Of a stretch of DNA of 64,000 nt, positions 1,790 through 31,162 are shown piece after piece (position 1 is the stretch's first letter; each line of letters starts with the position of its first letter). Under the pieces are notes generated by a model, which was given only the letters and a program-made list of their open reading frames with translations, made no database searches and had not been told where the DNA came from. The position numbers and the translations under genes are program-made. This DNA is from Methanolobus sp. (GTDB taxonomy: Archaea; Halobacteriota; Methanosarcinia; Methanosarcinales; Methanosarcinaceae). Where the stretch lies: contig NZ_JAUXNK010000070.1 in the NCBI RefSeq assembly GCF_030682845.1, positions 1 to 64,000 of the forward strand, read 5' to 3'.

Positions 1790-2125
1790 ATTACAGAGTG
1801 CCAGTTGAGCGAGGTTCGCTACTCCGGTAACAGTTCCCTTGTGGAAAAGTACTGGTACGACGGAAACGACAGGCGAGTCAAAAAGCAGAACTCTGCCGGG
1901 GAATTCACCTACTACGTCAACCAGTTCTACGAGATGGAGAACGGCACAGCAACCAGCTACTTCTTCCGCGACGACGGACGCATAGCCAGGCAGACAGCCG
2001 AAGGCATGGAATGGTATCTCTCGGATCACCTGAGCAGCACTACTTTGCTTGTTAATGAAAGCGGGCTTGAAGTCGAAAGCACTGAGCATTACCCATACGG
2101 CCAAGTGCAGTCAGGTGATCTTGAA
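1790..2125 (+). pseudogene. RHS/YD-repeat protein remnant
   Basis: The frame reads YWYDGNDRRVKKQNSAGEF, then YFFRDDGRIARQTAEG, then WYLSDHLSSTTLLVNESG and YPYGQV. These match the YD repeats and the D-H-L-x-S-T region that precedes the core boundary of RHS proteins. Only about 110 residues remain. There is no signal peptide, no upstream repeat array and no variable toxin tip. The reading frame simply runs on antisense into argC, ending at 2830. The fragment begins right after the nucleotidyltransferase stop codon and ends against the 3' end of argC, so it marks a junction of acquired or rearranged DNA. Confidence 0.7.
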
Positions 2126-2164
2126 AATATGTTTTTTGCAGCCATGGCAGCTACAGAACCGGCC

Positions 2165-3106
2165 TCACAGAAGACCGGTCGTTTCATCCATGCCAAGCAT
2201 TATGTTCATGTTCTGTATAGCTGCACCCGAGGCGCCTTTCCAGAGATTGTCCAGGCGGGAGAGCACCTGTATCTGCTCCTCGTTACCGTAAATGTAAAGG
2301 TCCAGATAGTTGGTATCGTTGCTTCCCTGCACATCAAAGGCATTATCCACCAGGTCCTTTGTCTCATCAACCGCATGAATGCGGATGAAGATAGAGTTGC
2401 CATAATACTTCTGATAGAGCTCATGCAGGCCCTGCTTCGTCTGGGGTTTTTCCAGATCCTTCATGGACAGGGGCAATGTGACCGCCAGTCCCCTTGGGTA
2501 ATTGGAAACCACAGGCATGAAGATGGGTTTGACGTTCAGGCCGGAGTGGACCATGATCTCAGGCACATGCTTGTGGTTCAATCCCAACGCATACTGCCTT
2601 GGTGCTTTGTAGGCTCGCTCTTTCGTGGTCTCATAGGTTTCGATCATCTTTTTCCCGCCACCGGTATATCCGGTGATGGAGAACAGCGGGACAGCTGTTT
2701 CCCGGGAAATGATACCTTCCTCCAGAAGTGGATACAGGGCAACGATAGACGCCGTTGCATGGCAGCCGGGGTTGGAAACCCTGCTCGCTCCAGCCACCTT
2801 ATCCCTGTGCGCCGCAGAGAGCTCGGGTAATCCATAAGCCCATGCATCGTTCACACGGTTAGCGGTGGATGCGTCAATGATCTTTGTGTCCGGGTTTGTG
2901 ATCAGACCCACTGCCTCTGAGACCGCTTCGTCCGGCAGGCACAGGAACACCAGGTCTGCCTCATTGAGCAACTTTTTCCTTAGTTCTTTGTCGTGGCGCT
3001 TCTCATAGGGGATCTCCATGATCTCAACTTCCGGATGATCCGCCAGACGCTCGTTCACCAGCAGGCCTGTAGTCCCGTGCTGGCCGTCCACATATATCTT
3101 GTACAT
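2165..3106 (-). CDS. argC: N-acetyl-gamma-glutamyl-phosphate reductase, uncommon (type 2) form
   Basis: Catalyses the NADPH-dependent reduction of N-acetylglutamyl phosphate in arginine synthesis. The N-terminus YVDGQHGTTG is the nucleotide-binding loop, and C115 in SNPGCHATA is the catalytic cysteine. The start at 3106 (MYKIYVDG) is preferred over an upstream in-frame codon at 3154 because it follows a GAGG site and matches the family start. At 313 residues, with DGQHGTTG, DASTANR and YGLPEL, it resembles the shorter form best known from alphaproteobacteria rather than the usual archaeal ArgC. It lies 16 bp after argJ in the same operon. Confidence 0.88.
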   Translation of the reverse strand: MYKIYVDGQHGTTGLLVNERLADHPEVEIMEIPYEKRHDKELRKKLLNEADLVFLCLPDEAVSEAVGLITNPDTKIIDASTANRVNDAWAYGLPELSAAHRDKVAGASRVSNPGCHATASIVALYPLLEEGIISRETAVPLFSITGYTGGGKKMIETYETTKERAYKAPRQYALGLNHKHVPEIMVHSGLNVKPIFMPVVSNYPRGLAVTLPLSMKDLEKPQTKQGLHELYQKYYGNSIFIRIHAVDETKDLVDNAFDVQGSNDTNYLDLYIYGNEEQIQVLSRLDNLWKGASGAAIQNMNIMLGMDETTGLL

Positions 3107-20828: not shown

Positions 20829-22574
20829 TCACTTTTTAATATGTGTGCCACCATTTTCTCCCTGCTTGCCTTCATTCCCGGGGCGGGCCATGTACTTAAG
20901 ACCAGTCAGACCTACTATCCCGGCAACGAGCAAGCTGACCAATAAAAGCGCTACACTCCTGTAAGTATTGTAGTACGGGATCGCATCCATGCCTCCTGAA
21001 GCAGCTGCAGTGTCCCCTATAGTGCTTACAGCCTGGTCTTTATCAAGCTTATACGGCTCATAGTCCACGCTTACAATGGCAAACACTGAGAAAACAGGGG
21101 TATATGCTGTGTAATACACATAAGTATCATCCTCCCCTGTCTTTTCGGTCACCAGGGGATTCCAGCCGTTTACATGGCCGTACAGAACAATAGACTCATG
21201 ATCGATGTTATTTGAGAGGAGCCAATCCTTTTCAACCTTGAAATTCACCTTTGCATCATTTGTCATATACGGTGAGAACTGCGCATCCCCTACCCACACG
21301 TTAAAGTTCTTATATACAACTCCTGGAGGTGCCTCGCTGATGAGTGTCGATGTGTTCTTTAAGATCTCTACCACAGTCTTGACCTGTCCCCCACTTACTT
21401 CCGGTATGAAGCTTATGGATACGATATTGTTACCCTCAATCCCAAATTCAAAAATCGCCTCCTGTCCCTTAACAAGAGAGGCAAAAGAGTAATCCTTGAG
21501 TTCTATGTTATCGTGTGCTTCCGTTGAATCACGGAAATCCTTAAGGAAATTTGCATCTTCAGTCACTGCGGATGAAACATTTACAGAGACATTTGCTTCA
21601 TTATCTTGAGTGATGGCTGGATTGATTGTCTGGCTAGTGTTTGAACTATCCGTTGAACTGTTGACTGAACTGGAACCGCTGCTGCTGTCATCCTTATTAG
21701 CGCTGTTGCTGATGCTGCCAGTGTCAGTGTTGTCACTATTCCCAGTAGTAATAGTAGTAATGGTATCAGGGATACTAGTAGTAGTTTGAGTACTGGAATC
21801 CCTTGTCGGACTATTGGTTGAACTGGAGGCGGTGTTGGCAGGATTATCCTCAACACTGTCATCACTGTCAGTATTGATATTATCTCTGGAATCCTTCCTA
21901 TCGTCGCTGTCAACCTCACTATCTTTGTCGTTTTTTACGTTGTCCATAGGGTTTTCGTCATCACCCCCAGTTTGAGTATCTTTGTTTTCATTCTGATCAG
22001 TTGAAACAGAAGATGTGCCTTTTGTGTCATCGGAATTAGTATCATCTTTCTTGTCATTATCCCTGACACTCTGTTCAATCTCTTTCTCATTATTGTTCTT
22101 ATCAGAAGAGTAAGTAGATACTGCATCCTCATCTTCAGATGAGGATTCGCTGGCATCGTAAGCATCTTCTTTATCGGGAGGAACATCAGGAATTATCTCG
22201 TCTTCATCCTGATTCCCACGCTGATCCTCAGCTGTATTATCATTCGTATTAGATTTGTCTTCGGTTTCCTCTTCTTGGTCAGAATAAGAGATATAATCTG
22301 GACTTTCAGACGTTTCCATTTCATAACTATCATCAGCTGAGGAATCGTCATCCTGGTCGTTATCAGAATCATCGTCATCAGCTGAGGAATCATCATCCCG
22401 GTCGTTATCAGAATCATCGTAATCGTCTGAGAAATCAGTATCGTCGTTATTGTCAGAATCCGCATTCGTTGATCCTGCAGACATCAAAATGATTAAAATG
22501 CATAGAATAAACAAAAGAACTCTCCCTGACTTCCAGTAACCAGACCGTCCAGTATTCGGTTCACTTAAAACCAT
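20829..22574 (-). CDS. Surface protein: acidic low-complexity ectodomain, PGF-pre-PGF module, membrane anchor
   Basis: A 581-residue exported protein. The signal segment is VLLFILCILIILMSAGSTNA. Residues about 40-330 are Asp/Ser/Asn/Thr-rich low complexity with no folded domain. Residues about 345-500 form the PGF-pre-PGF module (NIELKDYSFASLVKGQEAIF; NVWVGDAQFSP; TPVFSVFAIVS). A C-terminal membrane segment (SVALLLVSLLVAGIVGLTG) is followed by a short polar tail ending THIKK. It lacks the GKRYRR tail of its three upstream paralogues. The ribosome site GGTGGTGGG precedes the ATG. It is the last of four tandem paralogues. Confidence 0.8.
   Translation of the reverse strand: MVLSEPNTGRSGYWKSGRVLLFILCILIILMSAGSTNADSDNNDDTDFSDDYDDSDNDRDDDSSADDDDSDNDQDDDSSADDSYEMETSESPDYISYSDQEEETEDKSNTNDNTAEDQRGNQDEDEIIPDVPPDKEDAYDASESSSEDEDAVSTYSSDKNNNEKEIEQSVRDNDKKDDTNSDDTKGTSSVSTDQNENKDTQTGGDDENPMDNVKNDKDSEVDSDDRKDSRDNINTDSDDSVEDNPANTASSSTNSPTRDSSTQTTTSIPDTITTITTGNSDNTDTGSISNSANKDDSSSGSSSVNSSTDSSNTSQTINPAITQDNEANVSVNVSSAVTEDANFLKDFRDSTEAHDNIELKDYSFASLVKGQEAIFEFGIEGNNIVSISFIPEVSGGQVKTVVEILKNTSTLISEAPPGVVYKNFNVWVGDAQFSPYMTNDAKVNFKVEKDWLLSNNIDHESIVLYGHVNGWNPLVTEKTGEDDTYVYYTAYTPVFSVFAIVSVDYEPYKLDKDQAVSTIGDTAAASGGMDAIPYYNTYRSVALLLVSLLVAGIVGLTGLKYMARPGNEGKQGENGGTHIKK
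22331..22420. repeat. 45-bp tandem duplication in the acidic region
   Basis: A 45-bp unit starting catcagctgaggaatc occurs at 22331-22375 and again at 22376-22420 with about two mismatches. It encodes 15 residues of the Asp/Ser-rich stretch (DDSSADDDDSDND-type). The near identity suggests recent slippage, so length may vary between strains. Confidence 0.8.
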
Positions 22575-22740: not shown

Positions 22741-25566
22741 CTACCGTTTAAAGCGCCTGTATCGCTTTCCATCTGGGTTGCCAAGTTGCGCGATAGTTTT
22801 GCCGAGGGGATCCCTGTACTTGTAGCTCAAGACCCCCATAGCCGTAAGCCCTATGATGGCAAAATATGCAATACCGGAAGACTTTCTATCCTGTGTGGCA
22901 GAATTGAGATCTGTCGAGTCAGTAACATCATCTGGAGACATTGTACCATTTTCATCATCTTCTGATTGCAAAGCACCCTGTCCGCTATTAGTAGAAAGTT
23001 CCTGCAGTGCTTTTTCATCCATACTTGAGACGGAAAAAATGGAAAAAGCCGGGGTTTTGGCGAGATAATATATATAGGTCCCGTCTTCACCGATTTTTGT
23101 GGTAGGCAACTGGCTCCATGCCCCACCGGCGTATCGGAGTAATTTTATCGAAGCCGGGTCTACACTATTGCCTGCTATCCAGTCCTTTTTCACCTGGAAA
23201 GTGATACTTGCATCAGATATGCTGGCTGGCGAGAATTTCTCATCCCCCACCCATATGTTCACATTCCTGTAAACTATTCCCGGAGCAGCCTTGTTGACCA
23301 GAGTAGAGGTGCCCTTAAGTGTCTCTACTACAGTCTTGGTCTGTCCTCCGTTCAGGCGTGTAGTGAGAATGACCTTTGTGATGATACTATTATCCTTGGT
23401 GAAATTGTACACAGTCTCCGTATCCTTCATGACATACTTTATGGAATAATCCTTGAACTCTACGTTTTCGTACTTCTCACCACTGCTCATGGAACTGCCA
23501 CCACCGCCACCACTACTACCCCCAGTGGGGCCTGGGATGGATGGCTCACTGACAGTCACAGCAATCGTCTGGTAATCGTTGAGCTCTCCATCACTCACCT
23601 TGAAGCTGACAGAATAAGTGCCTGTCTGTGAAGCAGAGGGCTTCCACTTGAATATCCTGGAAGAAGTGTTAAAAGTTGCTCCTGGTGGCAGCCCTGATGC
23701 AGAGAATATCAGCGGGTCACCATCCCCATCAGAAGCACTAACCGTGAACTCCAGCGTGCTGCCAACATTGACATCCTTGGGGCCTATAGTGTCAAATTTA
23801 GGTGGCATATTGGTATCATATACAACAATTGTGGCAGTTGTGCTTGAACTGAGTGAGCCGTCTGAAGCAGTGAATTCCACGTAATGGTCACCCGCATCGA
23901 AATAACCAGGAGTCCAGATAAAGGTATTTCCCCTGATGGTGCCAAATGACTTGTTCGTCTTGAATGTGAGGAAGTCGCCATCGGGGTCTGTTGCAGTGAG
24001 AGGGATTTTTAAGGTCTGTGTCTCGTTGGCAAATTTCACAGGAGGCGGTTGTATACTAGGAGGTCTGTTGACATTAGCAACTTCGATCATTGTAGTTTTA
24101 TAGTCTCTGAGACGGGAACTACTATCAGAAACTCCAAATTCGAATGTATATCTACCTGCATCCTCGTAGGAAGGAGTCCACGTAAATCGGCCTGTTGCAC
24201 TGTCAAGTGTTGCACCAGATAGATAATCACCAGAGTAAATCAATGGACTATTACCACTATTACTGGCAATAATCGTGAAAGATAGAGTTTCGCCTTCATT
24301 TACTTTTAGATCTGGTATTGATAACATTTCTGGAGGGGATGCCGGGGTGGAGGATGAATCGCCTACCGCAATTATGAGTCCTTTGGATTCAGAATATAGT
24401 GACCCATCATAAAGATTGAATATAAAATTTGCATTGTAATAAGTCGCCGTAGGAGTCCACCTGAACAGCCCTGTTGCAGTATTGAATTCAGACCCTGCAG
24501 GCAATGCGCTTACGTTATGATAAGTAAGAGCATCACCATCCGGGTCATAAGCTGCGAGTTGTATGGTAATCTCCTCATGTACCTTAACAGATACATCAGG
24601 GATAGAATAGAGTATTGGTGCCCTGTTAGTGTTAGTGACGGTCACTTTTGCGTTTTGAGTTACTTTTTTGTCTCCATCGCTCACAGTGAACTGGATGTTG
24701 TATTCACCTGCATCATCATAGGTAGGTTTCCATGAGAACTTGTTGCCTGATATCGTACCGAATGGCACGCTCTTAGTAAACACCAGCACATCATTATCCG
24801 GGTCAGATGCCGTAAGGGTTATTTCAAGAAGGGTATTCTCACTCACATTAAAGTCTTCAATTGATGTGAATTCGGGTGGGCGATTCACATTGTTTACTGT
24901 GATAGTGACATACTCAGAATCCTGGCTTGCCCCGTCAGAAACAACGAATTCAACCTGATAAATACCCGCCTGGTCGTAGCCTGGTATCCACTGGAAAACA
25001 CCGGATGTGGCGTTAATGGTTGCGCTGCCTGGAAGATTTGGTGAGGAGAAGGCAAGAGTATTATTATCTTTATCAGATGCGGAGAGAGTGAAGGTGAGTA
25101 AACTGTTCTCATTTACAGATCTGGGACCAATGACTGCAAGGATGGGTTCCCTGTTAACGTTGATCACAGTAATTGTAATGTTTGAGTAGACAACAGAAGT
25201 TCCGTCAGTTGCTGAAAAACTTACAGGGTAAGTGCCTGCATCATCATAACCGGGAATCCACGAAAATATCTTTTTGCCGGCGTTCTGCTCGCTCCCATCG
25301 GTAAAAGAAGCTCCATCAGGCAGTCCTATGATCCCGTAAACAATACTGTCACCGTCAGGGTCGGTAGCAGATACCGTAAATGTGAGAAGCTGGCCTTCAT
25401 AGATACTTTTATCCTGAAGCTGGAATGCAGGAGGACTTGCTCCTGCTATATTAGCAGATAATAACAATAATGAAATGATCAGGTAAAAAAGAATGTGATT
25501 CTTCAATCTTTTTTTATCATCAAGCAAGACATTTTGTAGAGAGCCAAGAGCCGGATAACCCACCAT
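22741..25566 (-). CDS. Surface protein: seven cadherin-like/Ig repeats, PGF-pre-PGF module, anchor with basic tail
   Basis: A 941-residue exported protein. After a signal segment (ILFYLIISLLLLSANIAGA) come seven cadherin-like/putative-Ig modules. Each starts with RPP/REP/PPxF and carries SATDPDGD and FxWxPxYDDAGxY signatures. A Gly/Ser linker follows, then the PGF-pre-PGF module (NVEFKDYSIKYVMKDTETVY; NIWVGDEKFSP; TPAFSIFSVS). One membrane helix (IAYFAIIGLTAMGVLSY) and a cytoplasmic tail ending GKRYRRFKR complete the chain. No PGF tripeptide is present. The start may be the ATG at 25566 or the GTG just after it. A role in cell-surface adhesion or the S-layer is inferred. Confidence 0.82.
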   Translation of the reverse strand: MVGYPALGSLQNVLLDDKKRLKNHILFYLIISLLLLSANIAGASPPAFQLQDKSIYEGQLLTFTVSATDPDGDSIVYGIIGLPDGASFTDGSEQNAGKKIFSWIPGYDDAGTYPVSFSATDGTSVVYSNITITVINVNREPILAVIGPRSVNENSLLTFTLSASDKDNNTLAFSSPNLPGSATINATSGVFQWIPGYDQAGIYQVEFVVSDGASQDSEYVTITVNNVNRPPEFTSIEDFNVSENTLLEITLTASDPDNDVLVFTKSVPFGTISGNKFSWKPTYDDAGEYNIQFTVSDGDKKVTQNAKVTVTNTNRAPILYSIPDVSVKVHEEITIQLAAYDPDGDALTYHNVSALPAGSEFNTATGLFRWTPTATYYNANFIFNLYDGSLYSESKGLIIAVGDSSSTPASPPEMLSIPDLKVNEGETLSFTIIASNSGNSPLIYSGDYLSGATLDSATGRFTWTPSYEDAGRYTFEFGVSDSSSRLRDYKTTMIEVANVNRPPSIQPPPVKFANETQTLKIPLTATDPDGDFLTFKTNKSFGTIRGNTFIWTPGYFDAGDHYVEFTASDGSLSSSTTATIVVYDTNMPPKFDTIGPKDVNVGSTLEFTVSASDGDGDPLIFSASGLPPGATFNTSSRIFKWKPSASQTGTYSVSFKVSDGELNDYQTIAVTVSEPSIPGPTGGSSGGGGGSSMSSGEKYENVEFKDYSIKYVMKDTETVYNFTKDNSIITKVILTTRLNGGQTKTVVETLKGTSTLVNKAAPGIVYRNVNIWVGDEKFSPASISDASITFQVKKDWIAGNSVDPASIKLLRYAGGAWSQLPTTKIGEDGTYIYYLAKTPAFSIFSVSSMDEKALQELSTNSGQGALQSEDDENGTMSPDDVTDSTDLNSATQDRKSSGIAYFAIIGLTAMGVLSYKYRDPLGKTIAQLGNPDGKRYRRFKR

Positions 25567-25659
25567 GTATGCTGTATCTCACACTACAGCAAGATAAATA
25601 TTATTACAGATATTCTTTTAATTATAAAAATAATGGAGATAATTCATTAGAAAATATCC

Positions 25660-25683
25660 TGGCAGAACCGTTGTATTCTGCCA
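25660..25683 (-). terminator. Hairpin terminator after the 597-residue surface protein gene
   Basis: TGGCAGAA (25660-25667) pairs with TTCTGCCA (25676-25683), giving an 8-bp perfect stem. On the minus strand it lies about 40 bp after the stop codon and is followed by a T-rich stretch. Confidence 0.55.
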
Positions 25684-25724
25684 GATTTTCACCTAACTGA
25701 TTCGATTTAAAGCCAAAAGTATAT

Positions 25725-27503
25725 CTACCGTTTGATGCGCCTGTAACGTTTACCGTCTGAGTTGCCTATCCTGAAGAGCATCTCGTTTACTTGTTCCTTG
25801 TATCTGTAACCTGCAACACCAATCCCTCCCATACCCACCAGAACAAACAGGATGAAACTGGAAGATTTTCGTTCCTGACTCACTGGGACTGTTCCGGTGG
25901 CACCTTGCTCATCATCAACTGAAAGAGATGTGTTTTCATCCTCATTTGACTGTGACACATTCTGCTCTCCACCTGCCGGAGCAAAGGCACTTTCATCCAC
26001 ACCCGATATCGCAAATACTGAAAATCCGGGAGTGAAAGCGGTGTAATGAACAAAAGTTTCGTCCTCTCCTGCTATACTTGTTGGCAGATAACTCCATGTG
26101 TCCGAGTACCTGAGAAGTTTTATGGAAGCAGGATCTATGGAATTTTCTGCAAGCCAGGTCTTTTCAACCGTGAACTTAACCTTTGCTCCCTGTAGGTTAC
26201 TATTTGAAAACTTATCGTCACCTACCCAGATATTCACGTTCCTATAAACAACCCCATGAGCTGCCTTATTAACCATTGTGGAAGTGCCCTTAAGCATCTC
26301 TATTATAGTTTTGGTCTCCCCCTCATTCCGGCGGGTCACCACGATGACGGAACTGATGCTGTTGTTCTCCATGCTGAAATTGAATACATTATCTACATCT
26401 CGGAGTACATATTTGATAGAAAAGTCCTTGAACTCTATGTTTTCATACTTCTCAGTGCTAGCCTGGAAGCCACCACCACCACCTCCACTGCTACTACTGC
26501 CGCTTCCTGATGAACTACCACCTGAGCTACCAGAGCCACCTGTAGTGTTGGTTGAAGAGTTGCTGGCTGCCGTAACCGTAATTGAAGCTGTCTTAGCATC
26601 ACTGCTCATACCATCTGTCACTGTGAATACAGCCGAATGTGTCCCTAAATTGGATGCTGAAGGAATCCACTTGAAAAGCTGGGTCGAATTGTCAAATGTT
26701 GCTCCTGAAGGCAGTTGCGTTGCTGAGAATATAAGGGTACCATTTCCTCCCGAAGCACTCACGGTGAACTGCAGTGTGTTGTTTACTACAACCGTTTTAG
26801 GACTGATCGATAACATCTCAAGTGTGGCATTGGCCCCTGAATTTTCATTAATGACCGTGATAGCCACACTTCCTGCTGCACTCAGGGAGCCGTCTGAAAC
26901 TGTGAACTCTATTTCATAGGTGCCTTCCTGACCAGCAGCCGGAGTCCACTCAAAGGTGCCTGAATTTGGATCAAGGCTCGCTCCCTGAGGCAGTTCGCCC
27001 CCATTAATATATGAGAGAGTATCTCCATCCGGATCATATGCAGCTAATGTGAAACTTAAATACTTACCAACCTCGACGGTATGGGGAGCCTGAGCCTGTA
27101 TTGTGGGTGCATTGTTGGGCAAGGCAGTAACAATAATAGTGACATCCTCAGTAGCTGTTGAATTTCCATCTGTGGCATAGAATTGCAATTCATAGTCACC
27201 ACTGTCCTCCGGAACCCAGCTAAAATCACCGGTTTCCGAATTAAAAGAGGCATCAGATGGAGAATTGATGACACCGTACTCTATAAGAGAGGGTTCGGGT
27301 CCTGTAGCAGAAACTGTGAACGCTACAGGACTGCCTGCCTGGACCGTCTGATCGGGGACTGTGTTTATTTCTAGGGAGCTGGCACCTGCAACTGCTGAGC
27401 CAAGGAAGAGCAAGCAGAATGCAAGTAGCCATGGAGCATTTTTTCTGAGCCTGTGATAACAGGGGAGTAATGATTTTTGATGACCTGGGATAGTGAAATC
27501 CAT
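25725..27503 (-). CDS. Surface protein: three cadherin-like repeats, PGF-pre-PGF module, anchor with basic tail
   Basis: About 592 residues. The start at 27503 (MDFTIPGHQ) follows GGTGGG at ribosome-site distance; an in-frame ATG at 27518 is less likely. A signal segment (WLLAFCLLFLGSAVAGA) is followed by three repeats (for example SFTLAAYDPDGDTLSY and FEWTPAAGQEGTYEIEF) and a Ser/Gly linker. The PGF-pre-PGF module has NIEFKDFSIKYVLRDVDNVF and TPGFSVFAIS. One helix (FILFVLVGMGGIGVAGY) and the tail ending GKRYRRIKR complete the chain. It is closely related to its neighbours in the C-terminal 300 residues and divergent in the ectodomain. Confidence 0.82.
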   Translation of the reverse strand: MDFTIPGHQKSLLPCYHRLRKNAPWLLAFCLLFLGSAVAGASSLEINTVPDQTVQAGSPVAFTVSATGPEPSLIEYGVINSPSDASFNSETGDFSWVPEDSGDYELQFYATDGNSTATEDVTIIVTALPNNAPTIQAQAPHTVEVGKYLSFTLAAYDPDGDTLSYINGGELPQGASLDPNSGTFEWTPAAGQEGTYEIEFTVSDGSLSAAGSVAITVINENSGANATLEMLSISPKTVVVNNTLQFTVSASGGNGTLIFSATQLPSGATFDNSTQLFKWIPSASNLGTHSAVFTVTDGMSSDAKTASITVTAASNSSTNTTGGSGSSGGSSSGSGSSSSGGGGGGFQASTEKYENIEFKDFSIKYVLRDVDNVFNFSMENNSISSVIVVTRRNEGETKTIIEMLKGTSTMVNKAAHGVVYRNVNIWVGDDKFSNSNLQGAKVKFTVEKTWLAENSIDPASIKLLRYSDTWSYLPTSIAGEDETFVHYTAFTPGFSVFAISGVDESAFAPAGGEQNVSQSNEDENTSLSVDDEQGATGTVPVSQERKSSSFILFVLVGMGGIGVAGYRYKEQVNEMLFRIGNSDGKRYRRIKR

Positions 27504-27663
27504 GGAATAACCCACCATAGACGCTCTATCTCGAGCTGCAGAGTAATAAAGATTAGTATTAATTTTCTTAAGAAAATAAAATCAGAAGGATAAATATCAT
27601 ATTGCTGAAAAGGGAATTACATTAAACGAATCAAGAGAAGAAAATGAAGGAAATTGAAAACAA

Positions 27664-27684
27664 GCAAGGCTTAAAAAGCCCTGC
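27664..27684 (-). terminator. Hairpin terminator after the 930-residue surface protein gene
   Basis: GCAAGGCTT (27664-27672) pairs with AAGCCCTGC (27676-27684) with one mismatch or wobble. It lies about 30 bp after the stop codon on the minus strand, followed by TGTTTTCAATTTC. Confidence 0.5.
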
Positions 27685-27712
27685 CTGGTTCGTATATATG
27701 TTCTGTAAAACT

Positions 27713-30505
27713 TTAGCTTCTTTTGAAGCGTCTGTAGCGTTTCCCATCGGGATTACCCAATTGTGTGCGGACCTGTGATAGCTGGTCCTTATATCTGTAG
27801 CCAAGTACTCCAAGGGCCGAGATGCCTGCAAGGATCAGTAGGAAGGTAAATGAACCGGAAGACTTCGCTTCAGGGGAAACGGCATTGCCTGCTTGCGGAG
27901 TCTGGCTGTCTTCTGTTGACATCTGTGCGCTTTCCCCACTCGGGGATGGTGATCCCTGTTGATTACTGCCTGAAATTACTTGTTGCTCCTCCTTGCCTAT
28001 GCTTGAGATAGCAAAGGCCGAGAAGCCCGGCGTCTGGGTAATATAGTAGACATAGGTTTCATCCTCGCTAACCCTGCTGGTTGGCAATTGAGCCCAGGAA
28101 CCGCTATTATACCTGAGCATACGGATGGATGCCGGATCTATACCATTCCCTGCTATCCAGGCTTTTTCGACCTTGAACATGATTCTCGCATCAGACAAAA
28201 GGTCAGGTGTTGTCTTCCCATCCCCAACCCAGATGTTGACATTCTTGTAAACTGTCCCTGGAGCTGCCTTATTGACCATAGTGGAAGTGCTCTTAAGCAT
28301 CTCTATCACAGTCTTGGTCTGCCCCCCGTTCAGGCGGGCCGTAAAACCAATTCCAACAATGCTGTTACCTTCCTTAGTGAACTCAAACATCGTCTCAGTA
28401 TCCCTTAGAACATACTTAATAGAGTAGTCCTTAAGCTCGATGTTCTCATACTTCTCACCGGTAGATTGTCCTCCACCGCCCCCGCCACCGCCTCCAGTTG
28501 TTGGAGTTGTTGCGGACTGCGCTTCAGAGACTGTAATGTTGTAAATATCTGCTATATTTGAACCGTCGTTGGATGTAGCCTTAACAGTTACTGTTCCTAC
28601 AGCGGTTCCTGTCAGCAATCCTGTTTGAGTAATTGTAGCGGTTCCAGTCCCATTTATAATTGACCATGTTACAGTTTTGTCGATTGCATTTGTTGGAAGT
28701 ACTGCTGCAGTCATTTGCAATGTTTTGCCATTCTCTACAGTAGTCACATAACCTGCTGCTGTCACGTTTATTGAAGATACTGTTACAGGTACGGCATTAA
28801 CAGTAATTGTCTGGGTTGCAGTTTCTCCGCTTTCAGTGTGAGTGATAGTAACGGAAGTGTTAGTTGTTGTAAGAATTATACCATTTGCTGGAGCCACAAC
28901 AATTCCTTTCGAATTGAAGTTCGCAAAAGCAACATCCTCGGTACTTGAATTTGATCTTGTCAGTGTTATTACCAAACCGTTCAGGTCAAGAGCATCGCCT
29001 TCAGTATATGTCACTTTTGAAGGCGCGGTCTTGATAGAAACATTGGTTATTGTTACAGGTACGGCATTCACATTGATTGCCTGGGTTGCAGTTTCTGCAC
29101 TTGCATTATGAGTGATCAGTACTTGCGTAACTTCTGTTCCCAGCTCACTTCCCTGTACCGGGCTGACTTTGATTCCTTTTACTTCAAAATACGCAAACTC
29201 TACATGCTCTATGCTTGAATCAGACTTGGTCAATTCTACTACCAAGCCTGTTAGGTCAAGGGTTTCACCTTCGTTATAGCTTGTTTTGTTTGGAGCGGTA
29301 TAGACTTCGATACCATTTACTATTACTGGTTTCACAGTTACTGTAACTTCTAAGACTCCTTCTGCACCAAAACCATCGTTAGCCTTAGCTTTAACAATCA
29401 CTGTACCTACTTCTGTACCTGTCAATAGTCCACTTTGGGTGATGGTTGCATTTCCGGTTACAGCTTCTACCGACCAGGTCACACTTGCATCAGTCGCATC
29501 AACCGGGGATATTGCTGCACTCATCTGAAGATTCTTACCATTCTTTACTGTATTAGCAGATCCTTCTCCTGTGACAACTATTGAAGCTACATGTATTGTG
29601 GGGTCCTTCAAATCAACAATCACTGTAACTTCCTGTGCTGGCATTGTGAATGTATAGGATAGTCCTTCATACAGAACTTTGGTATCAATTACATTATTAG
29701 TTGCATCTTTAACTTTAATTGAGTTGAACTGCTTGCCGGATCCAATTTCACTGATAGTTATTGTTACGTTGGTCCCTTTTTCTGCTTCAGGTGCAGGATC
29801 AGTCGTTACAATTGCATTGCCTCCTGTAACTTCTGTTTGTATACCATATTTCACGGGAATGTCCAAAAGAGTTACATTTACAGTTACATTTTCTGCTGGC
29901 ATGGTGAAAGTGTAGCTGACTCCGGGAGCTTCTTCCATTGTGGCTACTGGACCACTGTTGCCTGTGACGTTAACAAAAGCAAACTGTTTGCCAGTTTCAA
30001 TGTTATCAATAGTTACTGTAACTATTTCATATTCCTCTGCACTTGGCTTATCAACAGTTACACTTGCTGTGCCGCCTACAACAGGCTCTACTATAACATT
30101 ATACACAGGAACTGGAATATCTTCAAGCGTTACAGTCACTGTCACATTCTCAGCAGGCATTTGGAAGGTATAATTGGCCCCAGCAATCACTTCTGTTGAG
30201 AGTACTGAAACAACGTCACCGGCTACATTGATAGATGAAAATTGCTTACCAACTTCAATATCAGTGATCGTTACAATCACTGTTTCATTTACCGCCGCAT
30301 TTGACTTATCAACAGTGACATTTGCTGTACCATCTATAGCATCAGCTATTGTTATATTATAACTAGTAGATTCTGTTGAGTTCCCACTTGAAGAGCCTCC
30401 CGCAGCGCTCAAAGTAACCGCAAGCACCAAAAGTGCAATGCAGAAGCTAATTTTGACAATACCCTGTATACTACTCATTCTAACGTTTTTTGCGAAGGGA
30501 TGCAT
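27713..30505 (-). CDS. Surface protein: InlB-B-like and bacterial Ig-like repeats, PGF-pre-PGF module, anchor with basic tail
   Basis: A 930-residue exported protein with signal segment ISFCIALLVLAVTLSAAGG. Three repeats of about 85 residues end in MPAENVTVxVxL (last copy MPAQEVTVIVDL). A Big_2-like domain (LQMSAAISPVDATDASVTWS), two Big_3-like domains (NKTSYNEGETLDLTGLVV and SKVTYTEGDALDLNGLVI) and a second Big_2-like domain follow. Then come a poly-Gly linker, the PGF-pre-PGF module, a membrane helix (FTFLLILAGISALGVLGY) and a tail ending GKRYRRFKRS. The ATG at 30505 follows GGGTGG. It shares its C-terminal third with the next two genes but has an unrelated ectodomain. Confidence 0.82.
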   Translation of the reverse strand: MHPFAKNVRMSSIQGIVKISFCIALLVLAVTLSAAGGSSSGNSTESTSYNITIADAIDGTANVTVDKSNAAVNETVIVTITDIEVGKQFSSINVAGDVVSVLSTEVIAGANYTFQMPAENVTVTVTLEDIPVPVYNVIVEPVVGGTASVTVDKPSAEEYEIVTVTIDNIETGKQFAFVNVTGNSGPVATMEEAPGVSYTFTMPAENVTVNVTLLDIPVKYGIQTEVTGGNAIVTTDPAPEAEKGTNVTITISEIGSGKQFNSIKVKDATNNVIDTKVLYEGLSYTFTMPAQEVTVIVDLKDPTIHVASIVVTGEGSANTVKNGKNLQMSAAISPVDATDASVTWSVEAVTGNATITQSGLLTGTEVGTVIVKAKANDGFGAEGVLEVTVTVKPVIVNGIEVYTAPNKTSYNEGETLDLTGLVVELTKSDSSIEHVEFAYFEVKGIKVSPVQGSELGTEVTQVLITHNASAETATQAINVNAVPVTITNVSIKTAPSKVTYTEGDALDLNGLVITLTRSNSSTEDVAFANFNSKGIVVAPANGIILTTTNTSVTITHTESGETATQTITVNAVPVTVSSINVTAAGYVTTVENGKTLQMTAAVLPTNAIDKTVTWSIINGTGTATITQTGLLTGTAVGTVTVKATSNDGSNIADIYNITVSEAQSATTPTTGGGGGGGGGQSTGEKYENIELKDYSIKYVLRDTETMFEFTKEGNSIVGIGFTARLNGGQTKTVIEMLKSTSTMVNKAAPGTVYKNVNIWVGDGKTTPDLLSDARIMFKVEKAWIAGNGIDPASIRMLRYNSGSWAQLPTSRVSEDETYVYYITQTPGFSAFAISSIGKEEQQVISGSNQQGSPSPSGESAQMSTEDSQTPQAGNAVSPEAKSSGSFTFLLILAGISALGVLGYRYKDQLSQVRTQLGNPDGKRYRRFKRS

Positions 30506-30871
30506 TCATACCACCCTTTATGACAATTTTTGCACTTCAGATTGACAACATCTGAAGTAAACTCCACTTATTTTGTTAAACATTACGTGCGGACATCCAG
30601 TGAACTCACTGATGACCCCGCATTTCTCCACTAACTACCAATATACAGTTCTATATTATAAAATTATTCAATATACAACTATTTATAAATCAATATTAAT
30701 TAATAACGTATAATAAATATAGTAAGTTGCCTTGCAAAAACTATATCAAAACTATGCATTCTATGAGGAATAACTCGTCATTAAAATCCGGGCAGAGATG
30801 AACATTATTGGATAGAATAATAAAGGAAACAAAACGAAATATCCACCAATGGTTGCAAAATGAATCGGTGA
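30506..30871. other. Intergenic region with promoter of the surface-protein array
   Basis: A 366-bp stretch. The part 30650-30725 is extremely AT-rich with several TATA-like stretches and probably holds the promoter of the 930-residue surface protein gene, leaving a leader of well over 100 bases. No RNA gene is visible. The right end borders a decayed CBS-domain gene. Confidence 0.4.
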
Positions 30872-31162
30872 TATCCAATTCCCGGCATAGTAACCCTCAA
30901 GGACCTCAGGGACAAGGTCAAACAGGATGATCTGGACAGGAGCATCTGTGAGATATCAACAAAGGAACTGGAGGTTGCATATCCTGATGAAACACTCAAC
31001 GCAGTGCTCAAGCGGCTGGCAGCAAAGGATATCGGCCGGCTTCCAGTGGTATCGAGGAAAGATAAGAGAAAGCTCCTTGGCATAATTACCCGAAGCGATA
31101 TAGTCAAGCTCTATGACAAAAAAGTTCTTTATAAGATGCACCAGAAAACGGAAGAAGAGTAG
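30872..31162 (+). pseudogene. Truncated CBS-domain remnant, ClC-channel type
   Basis: The plus-strand frame reads GIVTLKDLRDKV, EISTKELEVAYPDETLNAVL, AAKDIGRLPVVSRKDKRKLL, GIITRSDIVKLYDKK and ends at TAG 31160. This is the second half of a CBS pair with wording typical of the C-terminus of archaeal chloride-channel-CBS proteins. There is an in-frame stop just before (30869), no start codon at its head and no channel domain upstream, so this is a 3' gene remnant. Confidence 0.7.

Follow-up and report, generated by a model that had tools for sequence, protein, structure and literature searches.

A strictly conserved, predicted cytoplasmic tail on tandemly encoded PGF-pre-PGF surface proteins of Methanolobus is a candidate docking motif

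The window analyzed here, a stretch of 64,000 nt from Methanolobus sp. (contig NZ_JAUXNK010000070.1), carries three tandem genes on the minus strand whose products share one layout: a signal peptide, Ig/cadherin-like repeats, a PGF-pre-PGF domain (TIGR04213), one membrane helix and a basic C-terminal segment. By sequence, the nearest named relative is Methanolobus sp. Soudan_28, with 92% identity. The segment beyond the helix comprises 25-31 residues and ends in N-x-D-G-K-R-Y-R-R-x-K-K/R, the Methanolobus tail peptide being GNPDGKRYRRIKK. According to domain scans, tail gene 1 (27713-30505; 930 aa) encodes a signal peptide, Big_2/Big_3 Ig-like repeats, a PGF-pre-PGF domain (28004-28456; 175.9 bits), a transmembrane helix (27794-27856; placed by AF2 modeling and hydropathy) and the tail GNPDGKRYRRFKRS (27716-27757; read directly from the C-terminus and marked by its conservation). 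Tail gene 2 (25725-27518; 597 aa) combines He_PIG/Big_9 repeats with a PGF-pre-PGF domain (26001-26453), a helix (approximately 25809-25859) and the tail GNSDGKRYRRIKR (25728-25766), and tail gene 3 (22741-25566; 941 aa) combines He_PIG/cadherin-like/PKD repeats with the domain (23026-23478), a helix (approximately 22825-22875) and the tail GNPDGKRYRRFKR (22744-22782). For genes 2 and 3, the domains were located by TIGR04213 matches, the helices by alignment to gene 1 and hydropathy, and the tails by direct reading of the C-termini. In the scan of the three whole proteins, the scores against TIGR04213 were 156-170 bits, compared with a curated cut-off of 28 bits. In Pfam and NCBIfam scans their ectodomains contain solely Ig/cadherin/PKD-type repeats and the PGF-pre-PGF domain, with no match to an S-layer family, DUF1608 included. 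The array is closed by a fourth PGF-pre-PGF gene (20829-22574, minus strand) with an Asp/Ser-rich ectodomain, a transmembrane helix and a diverged, non-conserved end, GNEGKQGENGGTHIKK, that lacks the motif. The initial annotation had quoted the three C-termini exactly. Its range of 22741-27780 accommodates tail genes 3 and 2 and cuts short tail gene 1, which reaches 30505, and its assignment of the tail to three array proteins is correct, with the addition that the fourth gene of the same array is without it.

Two gene fragments were also seen in the window. At about 30807-31162 (plus strand) lies what is left of a ClC-type channel gene, which in other Methanolobus stands beside the array; about 25 N-terminal codons are joined directly to the CBS region, the channel core of more than 1 kb being absent. 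A fragment at 1805-2165 (plus strand) was judged by eye to resemble the end of an RHS-repeat protein.

PGF-CTERM substrates of archaeosortase A (TIGR04126/TIGR04125) are, like the tail proteins, surface proteins with a C-terminal helix and a basic cluster. In the tail proteins, however, the conserved element follows the helix, and a PGF motif immediately before the helix, already reported missing from the window proteins (0/3), is equally absent from all 47 tail proteins found in the genus (0/47). The genome encodes archaeosortase A (TIGR04125, 273.4 bits; C79:43006-43791) and five PGF-CTERM matches above the cut-off; thus, two modes of anchoring coexist. It had been supposed that proteins with a PGF-pre-PGF domain usually end in PGF-CTERM, and this is not borne out by the genome itself, where eight of the nine such proteins lack it. 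By reading of their C-termini, one (C59) has a PGF-type signal and four have short basic ends; the other four are the three tail proteins and the protein with the diverged tail. The proteins with short basic ends (L004, L005, L006, and L009) show no PGF motif. Since other members of the family end without this motif, the presence of a PGF-pre-PGF domain says little about whether a protein is processed by archaeosortase. A published table likewise lists far more PGF-pre-PGF domains than PGF-CTERM signals in several genomes (PMC5244752). The lack of PGF-CTERM is therefore not the special trait it was taken for: a retained membrane helix is ordinary, and it is the strict tail that stands out, as PGF-pre-PGF members elsewhere, while sharing the domain common to all three tail proteins, have either a few basic residues past the helix or PGF-CTERM. 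In the related genus Methanosarcina, S-layer proteins are proposed to be held permanently by a C-terminal helix that stays in place (PMC3361143), although these contain DUF1608 domains, whereas the tail proteins have Ig/cadherin-like repeats and an invariant, predicted cytoplasmic tail. Among the 47 members, the PGF-pre-PGF domain ends 34-45 residues before the helix, and the net charge is +5 to +9 on the cytoplasmic side against a median of -3 on the pre-TM side. The signal peptide together with the positive-inside rule would place the tail inside the cell.

The core of the tail, N-x-D-G-K-R-Y-R-R, ends 2-5 residues before the stop in the 47 proteins. Its N, D, G, K, Y, and last two R residues are invariant (47/47) and its first R is replaced once, by S (46/47), while position x varies. 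Mean pairwise identity is 96% in the core, compared with 56% in the PGF-pre-PGF domain, 40% in the juxtamembrane segment, 32% in the helix and 25% in the linker, and the near-invariant columns of the domain never form runs of more than two. The ratio pN/pS follows the same pattern, at 0.028 for the core, 0.37 for the domain, 0.44 for the juxtamembrane segment and 0.63 for the helix. The contrast drawn in the initial annotation between near-identical tails and divergent ectodomains thus holds, and it extends to the domain and the membrane helix. Mere shared ancestry, in which tandem duplicates of one clade would be too young to have diverged, agrees with the paralogy of these genes. However, core pS is 0.82 overall and 0.73, near saturation, between paralogues of one genome, whose mean identity is 96% in the core compared with 58% in the domain, 32% in the TM and 30% in the linker, and we regard this explanation as extremely improbable. 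Near-saturated synonymous sites in the core likewise speak against a DNA-level element or recent gene conversion, both of which were rejected. Synonymous codons differ at most core positions, even among the three copies of the window genome, and since they vary so freely, selection acts on the peptide. As a separate observation, the second Arg codon of KRYRR is AGR in 45 of the 47 genes and the third is CGN in 46, the first being mixed; this split perhaps reflects ancestry or a codon-level constraint.

A basic tail might also be kept for its charge, binding anionic archaeal lipids or nucleic acid and setting the topology of the protein. The net charge noted above and the positive-inside topology would suit such an electrostatic contact, but charge alone would allow K and R to be exchanged for each other and leaves the invariance of N, D, G, and Y unexplained. 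Moreover, the residues just after the core (alignment columns 68-70) vary, with a pN/pS of 0.35, whereas the core does not. We therefore consider a purely electrostatic role unlikely.

The distribution of the tail was examined with a profile of the three helix-plus-tail segments, searched across the family. Tail proteins numbered 47, all at one syntenic locus, and occurred in 23 of 27 Methanolobus genomes. The same profile found the tail in none of the family's 13 other genera, save for one weak match (G020; E = 0.006) that contains an internal stop codon and was judged noise. A DNA pattern for DGKRYRR, searched across the family and order, gave a picture in agreement with the profile and, within Methanolobus, fell at the C-termini encoded by the array locus. 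Off-locus matches to this pattern were rejected as carriers, since all those translated (from the order) lay out of frame, within spurious short ORFs or in the middle of an enzyme, and the motif is accordingly no chance occurrence. A juxtamembrane-plus-tail profile, run against 393 genomes of the phylum, had no match outside Methanolobus (1 of 136 genera); its matches were confined to the array locus, and the tail was accordingly rejected as a general signal on other proteins. None of the PGF-pre-PGF proteins inspected from other genera had an array-type tail, no viral carriers were found, and the string GKRYRR did not occur in the literature searched. The four Methanolobus genomes without a detected tail differ in kind. 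One is 70% complete and its CoA-ligase locus was not found (G048), and in two (G049 and G054) the contig stops within or beside the terminal gene of the array, so that tail genes cannot be seen. The sole true absence is G051, whose locus is readable and whose two genes have no tail. Absence from orthologues had been named as a way to refute the proposal, and the tail proved to be present in 23 of the 24 genomes with a readable locus. Both genes of the G051 locus (L196, 7537-13107, minus strand) stop right after the helix, with the ends YWAVRPEP and YWAVRLE. As the locus is kept there without the tail, the tail is dispensable in that species.

The array occupies a conserved site, flanked on one side by genes for a MiaB-like enzyme and a ClC-type channel and on the opposite side by one for an ADP-forming CoA ligase. 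The number of tail genes per species ranges from 1 to 3, and they are usually succeeded by a terminal PGF-pre-PGF gene whose end differs. In other species this terminal gene encodes up to about 1940 aa and has a longer cytoplasmic end, YRSRNESVVLSRYY... (L102, L114, and L119). In a tree of the domain, all array-locus proteins form one clade (SH-aLRT 97); the tail occurs in this paralogous clade alone and at this locus alone. Within the tail clade the two G051 genes group as sisters, and their tailless ends are therefore most simply explained by a single loss and a subsequent duplication. A CoA-ligase tree places G051 among tail-bearing species and has the tail on both sides of its deepest split; the tail therefore dates back at least to the genus crown.

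Known CTERM signals have their motif ahead of the helix and are shared by many unrelated proteins, which bears on the possibility that the tail is a signal for sorting, biogenesis or processing, recognized by a system of membrane insertion, localization or proteolysis. The tripartite layout of motif, helix and basic cluster does resemble that of C-terminal sorting signals, the motif holds a fixed place at the very C-terminus, and the genome runs an archaeosortase A system. The Methanolobus motif nevertheless lies on the other side of the helix, ahead of which none of the 47 proteins has a PGF, PEF, or VPxxP motif, and no such enzyme gene accompanies the locus. The restriction of the tail to a single clade and a single locus is also hard to square with a general sorting signal. 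We regard a signal of this type as a serious possibility, albeit a rather unlikely one.

The tails could instead bind each other, such that paralogues would cluster on the cytoplasmic side or form hetero-oligomers. Most loci have two or three genes bearing the same tail, and its mixture of Asp, Arg/Lys, and Tyr residues could self-associate. Some species (G041, G042, and G064), however, have just one tail gene although their locus is complete, and the tail therefore needs no second paralogue. Homo-oligomers would still be allowed, yet contact between tails appears very unlikely as the explanation.

Modeling of the C-terminal 253 residues of gene 1 with AF2 gave a confident beta-rich domain, a disordered linker and a helix at residues 207-227, beyond which a weaker, low-confidence juxtamembrane helix (229-239) is followed by a tail predicted to be without secondary structure, as would be the case for a linear motif. 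The PGF-pre-PGF domain alone was modeled at a mean pLDDT of 93.5. Sequence profiles revealed no convincing homology of this domain to PDB or Pfam families, and its best matches among solved structures were the GAIN domains of CD97 and BAI3 and the ZU5 region of ankyrin-B. The top five matches had E-values of 0.002-0.024 and probabilities of 0.97-1.00, with TM-scores of only 0.42-0.52. In addition, a conserved F-S (residues 148-149) stands directly before the last strand of the domain, and the motif PGFS is found in 61 of 93 PGF-pre-PGF domains. PIDD and CARD8 are cut at HF/S and SF/S (PMC3210808), and GAIN/ZU5-type domains have been described on bacterial surface proteins (PMC3482391). The possible likeness to the GAIN/ZU5 domains of adhesion GPCRs, ankyrin, PIDD, and CARD8/NLRP1 consists of these structure matches and the F-S before the last strand. 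Unlike those domains, the PGF-pre-PGF domain is without a conserved catalytic His or CxH: no His stands at the site of the PGFS motif in any regex-matched domain (11 of the 93 being unmatched), and none is among the conserved columns. From the models, it is possible that PGF-pre-PGF domains are archaeal relatives of the ZU5/GAIN superfamily, which we offer as a lead and not as an assignment.

Strong selection on the core peptide, while the rest of the protein diverges, makes a conserved internal interaction the most economical inference, and to this extent the internal binding partner proposed in the initial annotation is partly supported. The reading that we favor, at about even odds (probability roughly 0.5), is that the tail is a cytoplasmic docking motif for a common intracellular partner on retained, single-pass, adhesin-like proteins. 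The proteins would be anchored at their C-terminus by a helix that is kept and not cut by archaeosortase A, and the cytoplasmic segment would consist of a short basic helix followed by the invariant C-terminal peptide. Through this peptide, one to three paralogous ectodomains would share one partner, most likely a protein, that may serve in anchoring, clustering or localization. Confinement to one clade and one locus suits a dedicated motif of this kind. Counting against docking, the G051 genes and the fourth array gene lack the motif, and the topology is a predicted one. No partner gene is apparent among the flanking genes of the locus, which encode the ClC-type channel, the MiaB-like enzyme and the ADP-forming CoA ligase. 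To our knowledge, no intracellular partner has been described for the C-terminal tail of any archaeal surface protein, nor did one emerge from the literature searched. In animals, integrin alpha and syndecan-type tails present a short invariant cytoplasmic motif beneath divergent adhesive ectodomains, to which the tail proteins offer an analogy, with no sequence relation claimed. By extension, the array might encode putative receptors comparable to animal adhesion receptors, with adhesive Ig/cadherin-like repeats, a membrane-proximal GAIN/ZU5-like domain, a helix and a fixed cytoplasmic motif that would couple contact on the outside to a specific inside partner. This idea, along with the outside-in signaling or cytoskeleton-like coupling that it includes, is decidedly doubtful.

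Judging from its sequence conservation, the tail is probably recognized by something inside the cell. With a pN/pS of 0.03 at the end of surface proteins that otherwise evolve fast, these nine residues offer a practical bait for such a partner, and a binder, if there is one, would connect the surface of the archaeal cell with its interior. Should the tail prove instead to be a targeting signal, it would be one of a new type, in that its motif would lie beyond the helix, on the cytoplasmic side.
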